From NCBI RefSeq assembly GCF_007954405.1, contig NZ_CP042344.1:434001-498000 (forward strand): a stretch of DNA of 64,000 bases, read 5' to 3'. Of the stretch, positions 5,560 to 16,730 are shown one piece after another. Below the pieces are notes generated by a model. That model was not told the DNA's origin, did not search any database, and was given only the letters and a program-made list of their open reading frames with translations. A program made the translations under genes and the position numbers. The stretch is from Comamonas flocculans. Its GTDB lineage: Bacteria; Pseudomonadota; Gammaproteobacteria; Burkholderiales; Burkholderiaceae_C. The number at the start of each line of letters is the position of its first letter. Positions within the stretch are counted from its first letter, which is position 1.

Positions 5560-6809
5560 CGATCTATCTCTCCGAACACGATGTCCATCGTGCCTATGAT
5601 GGCCACGGCATCGGCAATCATGTGGCCGCGCACCAGCTCGTCGTAGGCGGCCAGGTGGGCAAAGCCCGCCGCGCGGATCTTCAGGCGGTAGGGCTTGTTC
5701 GCGCCGTCGCTCACCAGGTAGATGCCGAACTCGCCCTTGGGGTGTTCGGTGCCCACGTAGGTCTCGCCGACGGGCAGGCGAAAGCCCTCGGTGAAGAACT
5801 TGAAATGGTGAATCAAGTCCTCCATGCCGGTCTTCATCTTGACGCGCGGCGGCGGAGCGATCTTGTAGTTGTCCACGATCACCGGGCCGGGATTGGCGCG
5901 CAGCCAGTCCACGCACTGCTTGATGATGCGGTTGGACTGGCGCATTTCCTCGACGCGCACCAGGTAGCGGTCATAGCAGTCGCCCGTCTTGCCCACGGGG
6001 ATGTCGAAATCCATCTGGTCGTAGACCTCGTAGGGCTGCTTCTTGCGCAAGTCCCAGGCAATGCCGGAGCCACGCAGCATCGGCCCCGTGAGGCCGAGGT
6101 TGAGCGCGCGCTCGGGCGTGACCACGCCTATGCCCACGGTGCGCTGCTTCCAGATGCGGTTGTCGGTCAGCAGCACCTCGTAGTCGTCCACGCAGGCCGG
6201 GAAGCGCTGGGTGAAGTCGTCGATGAAGTCCAGCAGCGAACCCTGGCGATTGCGGTTGAGCTCCTCGATGGCCTTGGCGCTCTTGACCTTGCTCTGCTTG
6301 TACTGCGGCATGCTGTCGGGCAGGTCGCGGTAGACGCCGCCCGGGCGGAAATAGGCCGCGTGCATGCGCGCACCCGAGGCCGCCTCGTACATGTCGAAGA
6401 GGTCTTCGCGCTCGCGAAAGGTCCACAGCAGCATGGTCGACGCGCCGCAGTCGTGGCCGTGCGAGCCCAGCCACATCAGGTGGTTCATCAGCCGCGTGAT
6501 CTCGGCGAACATCACGCGAATGTATTTGGCGCGGATCGGAATTTCCAGACCCAACAGCTTCTCGATGGCGAGGCAATAGGCGTGCTCGTTGCACATCATC
6601 GAGACGTAGTCCAGCCGGTCCATGTAGGGCAGCGACTGGATGTAGGTCTTGTGCTCGGCGAGCTTTTCGGTGGCGCGATGCAGCAGGCCGATGTGCGGGT
6701 CGGCGCGCTGGATGACTTCGCCGTCGAGCTCCAGCACCAGCCGCAGCACGCCGTGCGCCGCCGGGTGCTGCGGACCGAAGTTCAGGGAATAGTTCTTGAT
6801 TTCAGCCAT
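5556..6809 (-). CDS. nuoD: NADH-quinone oxidoreductase subunit D
   Basis: 49-kDa-type subunit of complex I that forms the quinone site together with NuoB and is related to [NiFe] hydrogenase large subunits. 417 residues starting at [20 protein letters not shown], which contains the signature GPQHPAAHG. The C-terminus ends DIVFGEIDR, as usual in the family. The ATG at 6809 overlaps the last base of the nuoC stop (TAATG). Confidence 0.97.
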
Positions 6810-7450
6810 TAGCGATTGACTCCGCCCAGCCACTGGTCGCCGCGGTCCAGGCCCGCATAGTGTTCTTCACGGATGATGCGCGGCGTCACTTCGCGCGGCT
6901 CTATGGTCACGGGCTCGTAGACCACGCGCCGCTGGGTCTCGTCGTAGCGCATCTCCACTTCGCCCGACAGCGGAAAGTCCTTGCGGAAGGGGTGGCCGAT
7001 GAAGCCGTAGTCGGTAAGGATGCGGCGCAGGTCCTCGTGGCCGTCGAAGACCACGCCGTACAGGTCGAAGGCTTCGCGCTCGAACCAGTTGGCGCCACTC
7101 CAGATCGGGCACAGCGAGGGCACCACGGGAAAGTCGTCATCGGGACAGAACACGCGCACCCGCAGGCGCTGGTTGAGCGCCACCGACAGCAGGTGCACGA
7201 CCACGGCAAAGCGCGGGCCTTCGGCACCCAGGTCGCGCCAGCTGGAATAGTCCACCGCGCACAGGTCGATGAGCTGGTCGAACTTGCACTCGGGCGCATC
7301 GCGCAGCAGCCGCATCGCCGCCAGATAGTCGGGCGCCCCCACCACGGCGGTGACCTCGTCCAGCACCAGCGTCACCTCGCGCGCCTTGGCACCGAGCACC
7401 CGGGCCACGGTATCGCGCAGTTCTTCGGGGCGTATTGCCACATCCGTCAT
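6809..7450 (-). CDS. nuoC: NADH-quinone oxidoreductase subunit C
   Basis: 30-kDa-type subunit of complex I connecting the NADH module to the quinone module. 213 residues from the ATG at 7450 ([16 protein letters not shown]). The family signature is seen around [23 protein letters not shown] (given here only as the core ERE-DLYG-F-H-LRRI), followed by [14 protein letters not shown]. It is a separate gene, not fused to nuoD as in enterobacteria. Confidence 0.96.
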
Positions 7451-9026: not shown

Positions 9027-9800
9027 TTACTGCGCTTGCACAGCTTGTGCTGCGCTGATGATTTTCAGGAAGTCTTCGGCCTTCAGGGCCGCGCCCCCGA
9101 TCAGGCCGCCGTCGATGTCGCTCTGGGCCAGCAGCTCGCCCGCGTTGCCAGGGTTCATGCTGCCGCCATACAGCACGGGAATCGGCTCGGCCGCCGCCGC
9201 CAGCGCCGCGGCGAGCTGGCCGCGCAGCGCCGCGTGCACCTGCTGGGCCTGTTCGGGCGTGGCGGTGCGGCCCGTGCCTATGGCCCAGACCGGCTCGTAG
9301 GCCGCGACGATGCCCTCTGCGGCGCTGCCCAGCTCGCCGAGCACCGCGCCCAGCTGGCGCTGCACCACGGCCAGCGTCTGCCCCGCTTCGCGCTCGGCCA
9401 GCGACTCGCCCACGCACACCACGGGCGTGATGCCGTGCGCCAGCAGCCGGGCTGCCTTGGCGGCGACGTCGGCGTCGGTCTCGCCGTGGTACTGGCGCCG
9501 CTCGGAATGTCCGACCAGGCAGTAGCGCACGCCGAAGTCGGCCAGCATGGCGGCCGAAACCTCGCCGGTGTAGGCACCCTGCTCGTGGCGCGAGACGTCC
9601 TGCGCGCCGAGCGCCACCGCGCTGCCCTGCAGCAGCTGGCCAACCTGCGCCAGATAGGGCGCGGGCACGGCCACGGCGATCCGGCAGGCCGGCTCCTGCC
9701 CCTGCAGGCCCTGGCGCAGCGCCTGCAGCAGCGCGGCGTTGGCCTGCAGGCTGGCGTTCATCTTCCAGTTGCCGGCAATGAATTTGGGACGTGTGCTCAT
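9027..9800 (-). CDS. tpiA: Triosephosphate isomerase
   Basis: Interconverts dihydroxyacetone phosphate and glyceraldehyde 3-phosphate. 257 residues, a complete TIM barrel. Visible motifs are N-K near the start (GNWKMN), the catalytic-His segment [12 protein letters not shown], the catalytic-Glu segment [18 protein letters not shown] and the phosphate-binding YGGSMNPGN. It starts 4 bp after the end of the oxidoreductase gene upstream and is probably cotranscribed with it. Confidence 0.97.
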
Positions 9801-9804
9801 GCGT

Positions 9805-10791
9805 TCACCAGGTCAGGACGATCTTGCCGATGTGCTGGTTGGACTCCATCAGCAGGTGGGCGTCGGCCGCTTGCGCCGCCGCGAAGGTGGCGTGGACGAC
9901 GGGCTGCACCGCGCCGCTGGCCAGCAGCGGCCAGACGTGCTCGCGCAGCGCCTGGGCGATGGCCCCCTTGAAGGCGACGGGACGCACGCGCAGCGTGGAG
10001 CCGGTGATGAGCAGGCGCTTGCGCAGCACCAGACCGGCATTGAACTCCGCCCGGGTGCCGCCCTGCGCCGCGATGATGACGATGCGCCCGTCCTCGGCCA
10101 TGCACTGCACTTCACGCGCGATGTAGTCGCCCGCGACCATGTCCAGCACCACGTCCACGCCGCGCCCCGCGGTGAGGCGCTGCGCCTCGGCCACGAAGTC
10201 CTGCGTGCGGTAGTTGATCGCGGCGTCGGCCCCCAGGCGCAGGCAGGCGGCGCATTTTTCATCGCTGCCGGCGGTGGCCAGCACCGTGGCGCCAAAGGCC
10301 TTGCCCAGCTGGATGGCAGCCACGCCTATGCCGCTGCTGCCGCCCTGCACCAGCAGGGTTTCGCCGGCCTGCAGCCGGCCGCGGTCGAAGACGTTGCTCC
10401 AGACGGTGAAGTAGTTTTCGGGCAGCGATGCCGCCTGCACGTCGCTCAGGCCGTCCGGCACCGGCAGGCACTGCGCGACGGGCGCGACGCAGTGGTCGGC
10501 ATAGCCGCCACCGGCCAGCAGCGCGCAGACGCGCTGGCCCACCTTCAGGCCGGCGCGCGCCATCGCCGCTTCGTCACCGCGCACGATGACGCCGGCCACT
10601 TCAAGCCCCGGCAGGTCGGAAGCACCCGGCGGCGGCGGATAGTGGCCTTGGCGCTGCAGCACGTCGGGGCGGTTGATGCCGCTGGCGCCCACGCGGATCA
10701 GCAGCTCATCCGCGCCGGGCCGCGGCAGCGGCCGCTCGACTAGGCGCAGGTTCTGCGCCGGACCAAAGCCGGCGATCTCCACGGCGCGCAT
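9805..10791 (-). CDS. NAD(P)H-quinone oxidoreductase, zinc-independent MDR family
   Basis: Medium-chain dehydrogenase/reductase of the quinone oxidoreductase (PIG3-like) group, predicted to reduce quinones with NADPH. About 328 residues from the ATG at 10791 ([10 protein letters not shown]). An in-frame ATG four codons earlier at 10803 is also possible. The catalytic domain has [21 protein letters not shown], and the Rossmann domain has the nucleotide-binding loop [20 protein letters not shown] near residue 150. No zinc-ligand cysteine pattern is seen. It lies upstream of tpiA. Confidence 0.9.
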
Positions 10792-10814
10792 CACATCCTT
10801 CATGAATTTACAAC

Positions 10815-10868
10815 AAAATCAGGTGCAAACGCTTGCGGGGCAATCGCTTGCAGCTATCCTTTTCAAGG
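10815..10868 (+). repeat. Dispersed repeat copy R1 (upstream of qor-like gene)
   Basis: One of seven related elements in the window. Shared features are an AAAT-C-GG/GGCC-like left end, a central CGCTTG...CAAGCG imperfect palindrome and a right end GCAGCTATC. Here the core reads CGCTTGCGGGGCAATCG followed by CTTGCAGCTATCC. It occupies the short spacer between pnp and the oxidoreductase gene. Confidence 0.6.
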
Positions 10869-10870
10869 TA

Positions 10871-13126
10871 TCAAGCCTCTCCCTGACCGCCGGCCTCGTC
10901 GCGCGGGGCTTCATCGCGCGGGGTGCGCTCGTGCTCGCGCCCATTGCGACGGTGGCCCCGCTCGCCGCGGTCGCCGCGGTCGCCGTAGTCGCGACGCCCG
11001 CCGTTCTCGCCCTCGGGGCGGTCTTCGCGCGCGGGGCGCTCCAGCAGCGCCTTCATGGACAGCTTGACGCGGCCCTTGTCGTCGGTTTCCAGCACCTTGA
11101 CCTTGACGATCTGGCCTTCCTTCAGGTAGTCGCTGACCTGCTCCACGCGCTCGTGCGCGATCTGGCTGATGTGCAGCAGCCCGTCCTTGCCGGGCAGGAT
11201 GTTCACCAGCGCGCCGAAGTCCAGGATCTTGGTGACCGGGCCTTCGTAGACTTGGCCGACCTCGGCCTCCACCGTCAGCAGCTCGATGCGGCGCTTGGCC
11301 TCGTCGGCCTTGGCGGCGTCGTTGCTGGCGATGGTGATGGTGCCGTCTTCCTCGATGTTGATCTGCGTGCCGGTTTCCTCGGTCAGCTGGCGGATGGTGG
11401 CGCCGCCCTTGCCGATCACGTCGCGGATCTTCTCGGGGTTGATCTTCATGGTGTAGAGCTTGGGCGCGAAGCTGCTGATCTCTTCCTTGGCGCCGCCCAG
11501 CGCTTCCTGCATCTTGCCCAGAATGTGCATGCGCGCTTCCTTGGCCTGGGCCAGCGCGACCTGCATGATTTCCTTGGTGATGCCCTGGATCTTGATGTCC
11601 ATCTGCAGCGCGGTGATGCCCGCCGTGGTGCCGGCCACCTTGAAGTCCATGTCGCCCAGGTGGTCCTCATCGCCGAGGATGTCGGTGAGCACCGCGAACT
11701 TGTTGTCTTCCTTGATCAGGCCCATGGCGATGCCGGCCACGTGCGCCTTCATCGGCACGCCGGCATCCATCAGCGACAGGCAGCCGCCGCAGACCGAGGC
11801 CATCGAAGACGAACCGTTGGATTCGGTGATCTCGGAGACCACGCGCAGGGTGTAGGGGAACTCGTCCTTGCTCGGCAGGCAGGCGATGAGCGCACGCTTG
11901 GCCAGACGGCCATGGCCGACCTCGCGGCGCTTGGTCGAGCCCATGCGCCCGACTTCGCCGGTGGCAAAGGGCGGCATGTTGTAGTGGAACAGGAAGCGGT
12001 CTTCGTATTCGCCGGCCAGCGCGTCGATGCGCTGGGCGTCGCGCTCGGTGCCCAGCGTGGTCAGCACCAGCGCCTGGGTCTCGCCGCGCGTGAACAGGGC
12101 CGAGCCGTGGGTGCGCGGCAGCACGCCGGTGCTGATTTCGATGGGGCGCACGGTGCGCGTGTCGCGCCCGTCGATGCGCGGCTCGCCGGCCAGGATCTGG
12201 CTGCGCACGATGCGCGCTTCCAGCTCAAAGAGCAGGTTGTCCACGTTCACGGCGTCGAATTCCACGCCCTGCTCGGCAAGGCCCGCCTTCACGGCGGCGT
12301 AGGCCTCGCGGCAGGCCTGGGTGCGCAGCTGCTTGTTGCGGTTGTGGTAGGCCGCGCGCAGCAGGCCTTCGCCCAGTTCGTTGACCTTGGCGATCAGGGC
12401 TTCGTCCTTGGCCGGCGCCTGCCAGTCCCACGCGGGCTTGCCGGCTTCGCGCACCAGCTCGTGGATGGCGTTGATCGCGATCTTGCCCTGCTCATGACCA
12501 AAAACCACGGCGCCGAGCATCACGTCTTCGGGCAGCTGCTGGGCTTCGGATTCGACCATCAGCACGGCCGCCTCGGTACCCGCCACCACCAGGTCGAGCT
12601 GGCTGTTCTTGCGCTCGGTCTGGCCGGGGTTGAGCACGTATTCGCCGTTGATGTAGCCCACGCGCGCCGCGCCGATCGGGCCATTGAACGGGATGCCGGA
12701 AATCGCCAGCGCCGCGCTGGTACCGATCAGGGCGGCGATGTCGGCGTCCACCTCGGGGTTGAGCGAAACGGTGTGGATGACCACGTGCACTTCGTTGTAG
12801 AAGCCCTCGGGAAACAGCGGGCGGATCGGGCGGTCGATCAGGCGGCTGGTCAGCGTCTCGTGCTCGCTGGGCTTGGCCTCGCGCTTGAAGAAGTTGCCCG
12901 GAATCTTGCCCGCGGCGTAGGTCTTCTCGATGTAGTCCACCGTCAGCGGGAAGAAGTCCTGGCCGGGCTTGGGGTTCCTGGAGCCGACCACGGTAGCCAG
13001 CACCACGGTGTCGTCCATGCGCACCAGCACGGCGCCGCCGGCCTGGCGCGCGATTTCGCCGGTTTCCAGCGTCACGCTGTGCTGGCCCCACTGGAAGGTC
13101 TTGGTGATCTTGTTGAAGATGGTCAT
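10871..13126 (-). CDS. pnp: Polyribonucleotide nucleotidyltransferase (PNPase)
   Basis: 3'-5' phosphorolytic exoribonuclease of RNA turnover and the degradosome. 751 residues: two RNase PH domains, then KH (about 555-615, with [20 protein letters not shown]) and S1 (about 620-690). The C-terminal tail is rich in Arg, Glu, Gly and Asp. An AGGAG ribosome-binding site precedes the ATG at 13126. It lies downstream of rpsO in the classical rpsO-pnp order, separated by a terminator-like hairpin. Confidence 0.97.
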
Positions 13127-14206: not shown

Positions 14207-14283
14207 GCGGCTGTAGCTCAGCTGGATAGAGTACTTGGCTACGAACCAAGGGGTCGTGGGTTCGATTCCTGCCAGCCGCACCA
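14207..14283 (+). tRNA. tRNA-Arg (anticodon ACG)
   Basis: 77 nt including encoded CCA. Acceptor strands GCGGCTG and CAGCCGC pair fully, the anticodon loop is CTACGAA within TTGG/CCAA, and the T-loop is TTCGATT. Its last 45 nt (14239-14283) are duplicated exactly at 16640-16684, marking it as the integration site of a mini-island. The tRNA remains intact after insertion. Confidence 0.97.
14239..14283 (+). other. attL: 3' part of tRNA-Arg, left end of mini-island
   Basis: 45-bp direct repeat running from the anticodon loop (CTACGAACC) to the CCA end, identical to 16640-16684. A crossover segment spanning anticodon loop to 3' end is typical of tyrosine-recombinase elements that target tRNA genes. 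The sequences just outside the repeat differ at the two ends, which fixes its limits. Confidence 0.85.
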
Positions 14284-14291
14284 TTAAAATC

Positions 14292-14332
14292 AAGGACTTA
14301 CAGCGTCTTCGCTGTAAGTCCTTTTCTTTTTT
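14292..14332 (+). terminator. Terminator at the left edge of the mini-island
   Basis: A perfect 14-bp stem (AAGGACTTACAGCG with CGCTGTAAGTCCTT), a TCTT loop and a T-rich tail (TTTTCTTTTTT). It begins 8 bp after the tRNA, inside the island, and so replaces the native tRNA terminator now displaced to 16694. It may also stop the converging gene at 14361. Confidence 0.9.
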
Positions 14333-14360
14333 CTGTCCGGATGGGTAAACAGTTTTTGCG

Positions 14361-14948
14361 CTACAGCGCGAAGCGCTCGCCGTGCGAGACCTTGCGCAGG
14401 TAGTACAGCGTCAGCAGCTCGCCAGCGTAGCCGCGCCGCCGTGCGTACTCGAACAGCGCTTTTGACTGCTCGCGCACGCCGTGAAAGCCCGGTTGATTTG
14501 CGAGACGCAGCAAGTGCGCAGCGAGCTCGTCGGCGCGGCGCCGATGGCGCGCATCGTCAAGCATCGCGTAGTGCTCTGACATCTCCGTTTTCGGCCGCCC
14601 CCACGTCCACGCGGCGCGCCCGCGCGCGCCGTGGCGCATGAGCTCGTAGTTGAGGAATACGAGACGGTGTTTTCCTGTGATTTCGTGCAGTTGCTCTGAC
14701 TCGGCAAGCTCGCCGGGCGTGAACAGTAGTGCCCACTCTGCCGCGTCACCCTTTGACCAGTACAACGCGAGGATCGCGTTCGCGCGTCCGTTTTTCGTTT
14801 TTTTTCGCGTAAGTCTTTGCGCGGGCGTTGCGCCGATGGCGTGTTTCTCGTGCAGTTTTCTAATGACGCGTTCGACCTTGGCGGCGTCGATCCTGCCCGT
14901 AGCGTAACGCGTACCATTGCTCGCAGTCAACGACGTACAGGAAGGCAC
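14361..14948 (-). CDS. Mobile-element-type protein of unknown function
   Basis: No biochemical function can be assigned. About 195 residues if it starts at the GTG at 14948. A TTG at 14930 is the other option, and no in-frame ATG lies nearby. The protein is basic and mostly helical. Notable stretches are RVIRKLHEKHAIGATPAQRL, ILALYWSKGDAAEWALLFTPGE, YELMRHGARGRAAWTWGRPK and PGFHGVREQSKALFEYARRRGY. From memory, proteins with this LYW...LLFTPGE...YELVRH...AWTWR pattern recur as hypothetical proteins on plasmids and integrative conjugative elements, but I cannot confirm this here. The start lies only 6 bp from the start of the divergent WYL-like gene. The same frame stays open far upstream, antisense to other genes, which I treat as chance. 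Confidence 0.7.
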   Translation of the reverse strand: MPSCTSLTASNGTRYATGRIDAAKVERVIRKLHEKHAIGATPAQRLTRKKTKNGRANAILALYWSKGDAAEWALLFTPGELAESEQLHEITGKHRLVFLNYELMRHGARGRAAWTWGRPKTEMSEHYAMLDDARHRRRADELAAHLLRLANQPGFHGVREQSKALFEYARRRGYAGELLTLYYLRKVSHGERFAL

Positions 14949-14954
14949 GCCACC

Positions 14955-15821
14955 ATGAGTCAAACGCCCCCTCCCCATGCTCGGCCGCTGTTCCACATCC
15001 GCTACCGAGAGGACTTCGGTAATGTGGTGAGACGCGACATCTTCCCTATCCGCCCTTACGCCACAACGGAGGGCGTGCGAGCGTGGTGCTACCTGATGGG
15101 CGAGATGCGCCTGTTCAAGTTCGATCAGATCGAGGCCGTCAAGGAAATCAATACGGGCCGGGACATCAAGGCCCGTGGGCTGTGGGAGTGGTGCGGCCTG
15201 CCGACAACTGACATGGCGTTTTCGGACGAGTTGCCCGGGGCGCTTAAACAATCTCCTTGGGTAGAAGCGCCAGACAGTCCCAGATTCCGAGTGCAGTTCC
15301 TCCGCCGGGGAAAGGCCTGCACGCTGGATGTTGCGCCCAGCCGGTGGGAAAGTCATCGCGCAGCATTCGGTGGGTTGGCATGGCCCGCGAAGTCCCGCAT
15401 CGAGATTGAGTGGGCGGCCTTTCTTCAGATAACCGACCTTCAAACCGGTGAGGTGCTGGATCGGTGCGATTTCTGGCGGCGCGTATTGGAGCACCGATCC
15501 GACGAAGCATTGCCGTGGTATGTGCAATGGGCAGATCAGCGCCCCGTGGTCGACAGCCTGATCGCCGGCACGCGGGTATTGATCGGGCAATTCAGGGCAA
15601 CACACTTCCCTACCGTGAATGGCGCACTGGAATCCCTGAAAATGTCGCCGGTGGACGATTCGGGGATGCGCGCTATTGCCAAGGGGTCGAACAATGGCGA
15701 CTGGATTCGTCCGCTCACCCCTATTGAGCGCGCAGCGTGCCGCGTGGCCATACGCAAGATCTGCGAAGCACACAAGAAAGACCCAGGCGAGGAATTGCTG
15801 CGACGATTCCCATTGACCTGA
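14955..15821 (+). CDS. WYL-domain-like protein of the mini-island
   Basis: 288 residues from the ATG at 14955, preceded by AGGAAGG at a 9-nt spacing. Residues about 14-65 (IRYREDFGNVVRRDIFPI...VRAWCYLMGEMRLFKFDQIEAV) resemble a WYL domain, a ligand- or nucleic-acid-sensing fold found in many bacterial regulators. Here the W-Y-L core is replaced by W-C-Y-L. No helix-turn-helix is evident ahead of it. The remaining 220 residues are unrecognised: a tryptophan-rich middle and a basic C-terminal helix (ERAACRVAIRKICEAHKK). It is divergent from the neighbouring gene with a 6-bp gap and lies 106 bp upstream of hicA. A regulatory or effector role is inference only. Confidence 0.75.
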   Translation: MSQTPPPHARPLFHIRYREDFGNVVRRDIFPIRPYATTEGVRAWCYLMGEMRLFKFDQIEAVKEINTGRDIKARGLWEWCGLPTTDMAFSDELPGALKQSPWVEAPDSPRFRVQFLRRGKACTLDVAPSRWESHRAAFGGLAWPAKSRIEIEWAAFLQITDLQTGEVLDRCDFWRRVLEHRSDEALPWYVQWADQRPVVDSLIAGTRVLIGQFRATHFPTVNGALESLKMSPVDDSGMRAIAKGSNNGDWIRPLTPIERAACRVAIRKICEAHKKDPGEELLRRFPLT

Positions 15822-15877
15822 TTTCCGCTGTATGCCTCGCACAGCCATTTCCGCCATGGCGAACGACAGCACAAAAG

Positions 15878-15906
15878 ATTGCAAAAAATGATTGCAATAG
15901 ATTGCA
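15878..15906 (+). promoter_or_regulatory. Three ATTGCA iterons at the hicA promoter
   Basis: ATTGCA occurs at 15878-15883, 15891-15896 and 15901-15906, overlapping and flanking the -35 hexamer. This is a plausible operator for autoregulation by the HicB antitoxin, whose C-terminal part looks DNA-binding. Confidence 0.5.
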
Positions 15907-15920
15907 CTATTTGCTATCAT
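15892..15920 (+). promoter_or_regulatory. Putative hicAB promoter
   Basis: TTGCAA (15892-15897), a 17-bp spacer and TATCAT (15915-15920). Transcription would begin at about 15927, one base before the hicA ATG at 15928, so the message may be leaderless. No Shine-Dalgarno sequence is seen ahead of hicA. Confidence 0.6.
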
Positions 15921-15927
15921 CCGGCGC

Positions 15928-16182
15928 ATGAACAGCAAGCAGCGCAAAGCCCTTGAAGCCGTGTTTGCCAAGCCCACCAGCAAGACGCTGGAATGGGCGA
16001 CCATCGAATCCCTGCTCATGGCCACCGGGTGTGCGTTGGTAGAGGGCAATGGCAGCCGCGTGCGCTTCGTGAAGGACGGCCACGTCGCCGCCTTCCATCG
16101 CCCCCACCCGGCAAAGGAGGCCAAGGCGTACCAGGTGGAGCAGACCCGCGATTTTCTGACCCTGATCGGAGTGAAACCATGA
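15928..16182 (+). CDS. hicA: HicA-family toxin of a type II toxin-antitoxin pair
   Basis: 84 residues. The C-terminal half has the HicA pattern (GSRVRF...HRPHPAKEAKAYQVEQTRDFLTLIGV). Canonical HicA is an mRNA interferase with a double-stranded-RNA-binding fold and a catalytic His in a GSH motif. Here that position is Arg (GSR, residues 42-44), a variant seen in part of the family, so nuclease activity is uncertain. It overlaps hicB by 4 bp (ATGA), the usual toxin-first order. Confidence 0.85.
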   Translation: MNSKQRKALEAVFAKPTSKTLEWATIESLLMATGCALVEGNGSRVRFVKDGHVAAFHRPHPAKEAKAYQVEQTRDFLTLIGVKP

Positions 16183-16511
16183 ACACCATGACCCACAAGG
16201 GCTACACCGCCCGTGTCGAGTTCGATGAACGCGACGCCATCTTCGCTGGCCGCATCCTCGGCATTGCCGACGTGATCGGTTTCCACGGCGAAACCGTGGC
16301 CGAACTGCGCGCGGCGTTTGAGGAAGCCGTCGATGACTACCTGGCTACCTGCGCGAAGATCGGCAAGCAGCCGCTCAAGCCCGCCAGCGGCAACATGATG
16401 CTGCGCGTGCCGCCCGAGGTTCACCTGCAGGCGCAGATCGCCGCGCAGGCACGCGGGCAAAGCCTCAACCAGTGGGCTGCTGAAGTGTTTCGCAGTGCTG
16501 CGCTGGCCTGA
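16179..16511 (+). CDS. hicB: HicB-family antitoxin
   Basis: 110 residues from the ATG at 16179 (MNTMTHKGYTARVEFDE). The N-terminal part is the degenerate RNase-H-like HicB fold (GRILGIADVIGFHGETVAELRAAFEEAVDDYL, cores only). The C-terminal part, from about 72, is ribbon-helix-helix-like (LRVPPEVHLQAQIAAQ, SLNQWAAEVFRSA) and would bind the operator and the toxin. The start overlaps the hicA stop by 4 bp, implying coupling. It is the last gene of the mini-island, which such a pair would stabilise. Confidence 0.88.
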   Translation: MNTMTHKGYTARVEFDERDAIFAGRILGIADVIGFHGETVAELRAAFEEAVDDYLATCAKIGKQPLKPASGNMMLRVPPEVHLQAQIAAQARGQSLNQWAAEVFRSAALA

Positions 16512-16639
16512 TGTTGATGCTGGATTCATGGGGAATCCCGGGGGACATGCTCGATAAAACCTGTACACAACGTGCGCAATCTATGGGAATGGATGGCGCC
16601 AGAACTATAAAAATCAACTACTTGCCAGCGGCTGCAAAA

Positions 16640-16684
16640 CTACGAACCAAGGGGTCGTGGGTTCGATTCCTGCCAGCCGCACCA
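16640..16684 (+). other. attR: duplicated 3' part of tRNA-Arg(ACG)
   Basis: Exact 45-bp copy of 14239-14283 (CTACGAACC to the CCA end) with no 5' half, so it is not a functional tRNA gene. It marks the right end of the mini-island and sits directly before the strong hairpin that was probably the native tRNA terminator. Confidence 0.88.
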
Positions 16685-16693
16685 AAAGAGACG

Positions 16694-16730
16694 AGGGGTT
16701 TCAGTCGGGAGACTGAAACCCCTTTTCCTT
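16694..16730 (+). terminator. Original tRNA-Arg terminator, now right of attR
   Basis: The 12-bp stem GGGGTTTCAGTC/GACTGAAACCCC (13 bp with an outer A-T pair), a GGGA loop and a T-rich tail. It is separated from the tRNA by the inserted mini-island. Confidence 0.88.

Follow-up and report, generated by a model that had tools for sequence, protein, structure and literature searches.

Cis-mobilizable elements (CIMEs) have been defined as decay products of integrative and conjugative elements or integrative and mobilizable elements (PMC5704250), and 15 ssrA islands without integration modules were reported which might be CIMEs (PMC3146451). Stabilisation of a tRNA-located island by a toxin-antitoxin pair has also been published (PMC8978831). 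A further described system is the circularly permuted (CP) group II RNA, which is often accompanied by a divergent open reading frame, AcpG, stated by Roth et al. (2021) to have no known homology or function (PMC8637638). No publication on integrase-less genomic islands at tRNA genes was found in the literature library searched. The present analysis concerns a 2.4-kb segment bracketed by copies of the 3' part of a tRNA-Arg(ACG) gene in Comamonas flocculans. It lies in a 64,000-nt stretch of contig NZ_CP042344.1, termed the window, to which the positions of window genes and sites refer. The segment is interpreted, with a probability of roughly 0.8, as a decayed, non-autonomous, CIME-type remnant of tyrosine-integrase islands inserting at the tRNA-Arg(ACG) 3' end. 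Its features are as follows.

14207..14283, plus strand: tRNA-Arg(ACG), the target gene, whole at the left junction (attL side); ARAGORN, same upstream context in congeners
14239..14283, plus strand: core repeat, left copy, being the 3' part of the tRNA; 45/45 repeat
14284..14330, plus strand: terminator-like hairpin T1 (arms 14292-14305 and 14310-14323), which differs from T2 and from the hairpins of empty sites
14361..14918, minus strand: acpG fragment (gene 1, previously an "unknown gene"), 5'-truncated by alignment with homologues and identified as AcpG by profile
14914..14954, no strand: probable junction left by a deletion, with the acpG fragment on one side and gene 2 on the other, placed by the end of DNA similarity
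14955..15821, plus strand: gene 2, an orphan of 288 amino acids whose N-terminal part (residues 14-66) is weakly WYL-like; homologue searches and PADLOC
15928..16182, plus strand: predicted hicA toxin gene (Pfam PF07927, E 4.4e-9; PHROG 8887)
16179..16511, plus strand: predicted hicB antitoxin gene (Pfam PF05534, E 1.5e-17; PHROG 9151)
16611..16623, plus strand: arm-like motif AAATCAACTACTT; its first base is 33 bp ahead of the 41-nt core probe, and other elements at tRNA-Arg(ACG) share it
16640..16684, plus strand: core repeat, right copy (attR side); 45/45 repeat
16685..16730, plus strand: terminator-like hairpin T2 (16695-16722), like the hairpins on both sides of the remnant in the sister species G007

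Core repeats and truncated acpG

The two core copies form a direct repeat with 45/45 identity and a start-to-start distance of 2401 bp, extending from the anticodon loop of the tRNA to its CCA end. The frames between them were found at 14361-14930 (minus strand, within a longer open frame), 14955-15821, 15928-16182 and 16179-16511 (plus strand). Neither these frames nor the Pfam searches revealed a recombinase between the repeats, and none of the 11 PF00589 loci of the genome is located there. When nine genomes of the genus were searched with a 41-nt core probe (up to 3 mismatches), a second copy was present in the window genome and in the sister species G007 only, and the backwards control of the probe gave 0 second copies; the duplication is therefore not due to chance. 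At neither of the two further tRNAs of the window was a direct repeat of at least 25 bases found. The result is in accordance with a preliminary description made from the sequence alone, which had reported the perfect copy, the lack of a recombinase and four genes foreign to their surroundings. The duplication is att-like, and its target also serves integrase elements elsewhere in the family.

The same description had suggested looking for empty sites in relatives, and these were found in two congeners, G008 (L027) and G002 (L030). In both, tRNA-Arg comes after pnp, rpsO and a small secreted protein, and next to it are a terminator and then directly the GGDEF/EAL gene found beyond the right repeat in the window; the G002 contig stops 45 codons into this gene. 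A single core copy each was detected with the probe in G003, G004, G005 and G006, where the GGDEF/EAL gene was not found downstream of the core in the stretches examined; cutA is downstream of the core in G004 and G005. G001 gave no match to the probe. The housekeeping neighbours are presumably pnp, rpsO, GGDEF/EAL and cutA, as named from reading their sequences.

The sister species G007 carries an insertion of about 1.0 kb at the same place, whose only whole genes are hicAB. Its order is tRNA, a T2-like terminator, about 11 last codons of gene 2, hicAB, core and T2, and 853 bp align with the window insertion at 93%. The right core copy has 2 mismatches in G007 and is perfect in the window. 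Part of the insertion thus appears to be older than the species split, and the two insertions diverged in content after it. T2 flanks the G007 remnant on both sides (L021:10000-11100), whereas T1 adjoins the tRNA in the window. This difference points either to two elements having been stacked there or to gene conversion.

The four frames of the preliminary description are indeed present, but the first is not a complete gene. DNA similarity between the window acpG and the second copy in the same genome (C1:2333206-2333829) stops at 14913. The 11 other members of the protein alignment (A1) all reach past this end point and carry an N-terminal stretch like MPASTPIARSKTAAL, which is missing from the window copy. 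The window frame begins at about residue 25 of its homologues, the start codon and the first ~25 residues being gone; before the remaining frame there is a TTG only, with no obvious ribosome site. The window acpG is thus a stub, and since it is 5'-truncated, the divergent unknown/WYL pair noted earlier is probably a place where two unrelated pieces meet. The compact cargo unit proposed earlier is, as an intact element, not supported, in view of one truncated gene in four, a "pair" which is apparently a junction, and a smaller remnant at the same place in the sister species.

The second gene was analysed by homologue searches. It matched the WYL model of PADLOC weakly (E 0.0038) and PHROG 6785, of unassigned function (E 0.0017), and gave no Pfam match, so that the WYL-like label holds in a weak form. 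Among 300 genomes of the order and 398 of the phylum, the searches returned gene 2 itself and one weak match in each set (32% and 28%, respectively), both in the WYL part. None was found in plasmids or phages at E 1e-5, nor in scans of genome contigs and viral contigs with exact short peptides. The earlier suggestion of searching for co-occurrence of the pair elsewhere accordingly led to no recurring association, gene 2 having no homologue in these collections beyond the weak matches. Its structure model was unusable (predicted local distance difference test 33), and gene 1, gene 2 and HicA had no match among solved structures.

The pair hicAB is the part kept whole in both sister species. The ratio of nonsynonymous to synonymous change against G007 was 0.09 for hicB and 0.26 for hicA, estimated from few substitutions (16 and 15), and by these ratios hicAB is under purifying selection. 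This suggests retention by addiction. At places other than this tRNA, hicB is kept and hicA is cut short in G005 (L024:6634-7037) and G002 (L025:1895-2292), a pattern which would fit selection on the pair with the toxin lost before the antitoxin. In both genomes the gene adjoining hicB is, by our reading, presumably acetyltransferase-like.

Arm-like motif and integrase family

The core probe was run on 150 genomes of the family, of which 12 were re-examined. Many genomes had two matches among the matches listed; the counts given here refer to the copies examined and are not a census of mini-islands. Among the copies examined, mini-islands were observed in the window, G007 and G013 only. The second copies of G340, G438 and G422, at distances of 0.9-3.0 kb, were considered as a class of integrase-less mini-islands but are complete duplicated tRNA genes, and the core pairs of G128 and G368 were rejected on the same ground.

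Nine of the core copies examined lack the tRNA 5' half (window, G007, G013, G366, G439, G372, G406, G084 and G376). In seven of them AAATCAACNACTT stands before the core at the identical distance (-33), with 12/12 positions matching in the window, G007, G366 and G376, 11/12 in G084 and 10/12 in G406 and G439; in no case did more than 1 of 2000 block shuffles score as high. The motif is not at this position in G013 or G372. It was first noticed by eye in the window, G007, G376 and G084, after which three of the five remaining copies were positive. The spacing seen at the right end of the window segment is the same in five of the seven elements other than the window and G007, and four of these five motif-bearing elements have an integrase gene of one family adjoining the tRNA. 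The tRNA-proximal genes of G084, G406, G366 (a 212-amino-acid frame) and G372 matched Pfam PF00589 (4 of 5 tested), while that of G128 did not. The integrases of G084, G406, G366, G372 and G376 form one family with 38-72% identity. Since the motif is shared at a fixed distance, the right end of the segment looks like the inner arm of the attR of the tRNA-Arg(ACG) integrase family, and the window would thus keep this apparent arm. In the G372 element (L102), an arm-like motif seemingly in inverted orientation was seen by eye just before the distal core.

The window genome itself has 11 integrase-like loci, none of which was found to be closely related to the matching integrase family; one of the 11 matched the hot-spot integrases at 21-30% identity. 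The earlier idea of an integrase acting in trans therefore fares unevenly, one arm-like site being kept but no close family relative being present among these loci.

A separate case was observed in G013, which belongs to another genus. A 2.5-kb segment (L023:5239-7779), flanked by tRNA-Arg(ACG) and by a core copy that is partial, carries a single gene for a GHKL/HSP90-like ATPase (659 amino acids, Pfam E 6.4e-6), with no integrase seen and no arm-like motif. The ATPase gene is possibly a defence gene; it gave no PADLOC match.

AcpG and its RNA partner

The identity of gene 1 was examined by profile comparison. Its profile matched a 259-amino-acid protein of plasmid pTT8 with an hhalign probability of 95% (E 4e-8) and, by hmmsearch among the frames given, with E 3.4e-9. 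The coding sequence at pTT8 6164-6943 was taken as TTHC007 (about 260 amino acids) by its length. On the strength of this profile match gene 1 belongs to the AcpG family. A HAD_SAK_2 match (E 2.8e-4, below its cut-off) was taken as spurious, and a plain protein search revealed no relative of gene 1 in plasmids, phages or viral contigs. Among the matches listed, judged by title and abstract, PMC8637638 is the only publication about AcpG, and the pairing of acpG with a structured RNA is already published there.

The intact acpG relatives are mostly divergent to a covarying RNA of about 1.1 kb, as in locus L022 (RNA at 10331-11480, plus strand; acpG at 9707-10330, minus strand). The ~1.1 kb upstream of the homologues is conserved, 21 loci matching others; of the downstream flanks, those of 10 loci have matches, in each case to one or two other loci only. 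Integrase candidates are found nearby, of which three of four scanned have a tyrosine-integrase Pfam domain (L022, L050 and L054) and the fourth (L056) has DUF6538 only; tRNAs stand near several homologues. L022 is the second acpG place of the window genome (C1:2333206-2334980), where the intact gene and its CP group II-like RNA of about 1.1 kb adjoin a tyrosine integrase. A gene beside them reads like a type I methylase gene. A HEARO RNA (Rfam RF02033) was observed at L071:5270-5545, a few kb from another homologue.

The RNA alignment (A5) comprised 19 of the 23 sequences of a larger alignment (A4), L086 and three loci in which the RNA is absent or interrupted in the aligned stretch (L064, L068 and L088) being omitted. 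It gave 222 predicted pairs (kept if at least 80% canonical), with 96.4% of cells paired and 131 of the 222 pairs changed on both sides, values biased in favour of the structure since it was derived from and filtered on the same alignment. The covariation was 0.478 against 0.178 for shuffled alignments (0 of 500 as high), and sliding the pairing by 1-3 columns left 35-42% paired. The RNA folds best on the strand opposite to acpG, with a consensus folding energy of -507 against -412 kcal/mol; three shuffled alignments gave -122 to -128 kcal/mol.

A model of a 148-position part of the RNA, R1, matched 21 of 300 genomes of the order, and the gene-1 protein was found in 23 of apparently the same 300. 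Both were present in 20 (Fisher p about 5e-27), that is, in 20 of the 21 RNA genomes, and 23 of 24 RNA places had a gene-1 match within 1.7 kb. The model was built from RNAs chosen beside gene 1, the genomes are related, and at least 6 of the 21 positive genomes (G000, G069, G096, G114, G146 and G226) supplied its sequences, so the counts mainly show that the RNA is rarely found without the AcpG protein. In the other direction R1 matched 11 of 24 sources holding gene-1 relatives; there was no match in the remaining 13 (L064, L069, L087, L088, L089, L091-L095 and L135-L137), several of which are cut by contig or stretch ends, and the contig of L064 has the RNA about 13 kb from acpG (L026). The model has no match in the window, where the acpG fragment stands without the RNA beside it.

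The RNA beside intact acpG is likely to be the CP group II RNA, an assignment less directly shown than that of AcpG. A CP group II RNA has domains D5 and D6 at the 5' end, with D1-D4 after them. GUGYG, a weak sign, occurs in the inspected stretch of 14 of the 19 RNAs. R1 did not match pTT8 with default filters and matched it weakly with the filters off (E 0.012 and 0.02). DNA similarity of the RNA reaches 27 plasmid records, including one of Polaromonas naphthalenivorans CJ2 (74% over 152 bp), which is among the organisms used in PMC8637638. A new RNA class was considered and rejected, as the literature leads to the CP group II RNA (PMC8637638). Rfam gave no match at the gathering score for the RNA in 8 loci and chance-level matches only in one locus; this is uninformative because the pTT8 region, of known class, is also below the gathering score.

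The predicted fold of AcpG appears to be most like that of group II intron reverse transcriptases. By sequence no such relation emerged, the hhalign probability being 0.2 against 12 maturases with 0.1 for an integrase control. A tentative suggestion, which we consider rather unlikely, is that the AcpG family consists of group II intron reverse transcriptases (RRM-like palm and three-helix thumb) which are catalytically dead but were kept as the protein partner of the CP group II ribozyme, travelling with it on islands. If this were true, AcpG would supply the missing maturase of the CP group II RNA, and the window would hold its broken end. Group II intron maturase domain matches were also seen in the window genome at C1:858018-858254 and C1:2311435-2311656, the only one of the nine genomes of the genus searched to have them.

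Origin of the segment and comparison with known systems

The repeats, the truncation and the retained arm can be joined in one course of events. An integrase element would have inserted at the 3' end of tRNA-Arg(ACG); later deletions would have taken the integrase and most of the cargo, joining the acpG stub to gene 2. The pair hicAB would have stayed because cells that lose a toxin-antitoxin pair are penalised. Should an integrase of that family reach the cell, the retained ends might still recombine. The preliminary description had named a plain remnant as the finding which would count against it, and this is largely what was obtained, except that a complete ancestor was not found.

Several observations weigh against decay from such an element. 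The right core copy is perfect (45/45) although hicAB apparently predates the split from G007; a pure relic should have drifted, and homogenisation or a later event is therefore needed. The complete ancestral element was not found. The link between motif and integrase does not hold in two elements, G372 having an integrase of the family and no motif at -33, and G439 having the motif and no family integrase within the 9 kb examined beside the tRNA. Gene 2 is still open over all of its 288 codons and has a Shine-Dalgarno-like GGAAGG; the segment is thus not broken throughout.

One particular version of the decay explanation, whose likelihood overlaps with that of the general one, is given about even odds. 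It states that T1 with the acpG stub and gene 2 with hicAB and T2 came from two stacked elements fused by deletion. The position of T1 beside the tRNA here and of T2 on both sides in G007 agrees with this, as does a junction inside acpG directly before gene 2; no internal core copy survives, however, and gene conversion between the repeats could yield the same terminator pattern. It is improbable that the segment is a compact cargo unit which an integrase acting in trans mobilises in its present form. This explanation would account for the perfect core repeats and the arm-like motif kept at the right end, and the integrase-less segment of G013 with its one GHKL-ATPase gene offers a second example at tRNA-Arg(ACG). 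That segment is without the arm-like motif, however, the window acpG is truncated, the genome has no close relative of the integrase family, and gene 2 recurs in none of the 300 and 398 genomes sampled save for the weak WYL-part matches. Least probable is that the WYL-like protein and HicAB work jointly as a small defence cassette. The PADLOC WYL match, HicAB and the mobile context speak for this, but gene 2 has no homologue and hence no recurring association, hicAB stands without gene 2 in G007, hicB occurs with a truncated hicA elsewhere in G005 and G002, and neither HicA nor HicB matched a PADLOC model at E 0.1.

As a decayed remnant, the segment offers a worked example of island decay, with two sister species representing two stages at one tRNA. 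The part that has stayed whole in each of them is the toxin-antitoxin pair, in agreement with retention by addiction, and an integrase family tied to an end motif would make other integrase-less remnants recognisable. The larger gain is that the unknown gene can now be named as an AcpG fragment, together with a testable guess on the nature of AcpG.

Compared with the known systems, the window segment is like a CIME in keeping att sites without integrase or transfer genes, in its tRNA 3'-end target and in its signs of stacking; it is unlike one in being very small (2.4 kb). Its gene 1 belongs to the family of the pTT8 protein of the CP group II/AcpG system (PMC8637638), but the copy is truncated and has no RNA adjoining. 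The gene order hicA-hicB and the Pfam and PHROG matches mark hicAB as a predicted type II toxin-antitoxin system. In CGI48, a composite island at tRNA-Trp with HipAB, a toxin-antitoxin pair maintains a tRNA-located island (PMC8978831); that pair is a different one, and the island measures 48 kb and is excised upon expression of integrase and excisionase (PMC8978831).

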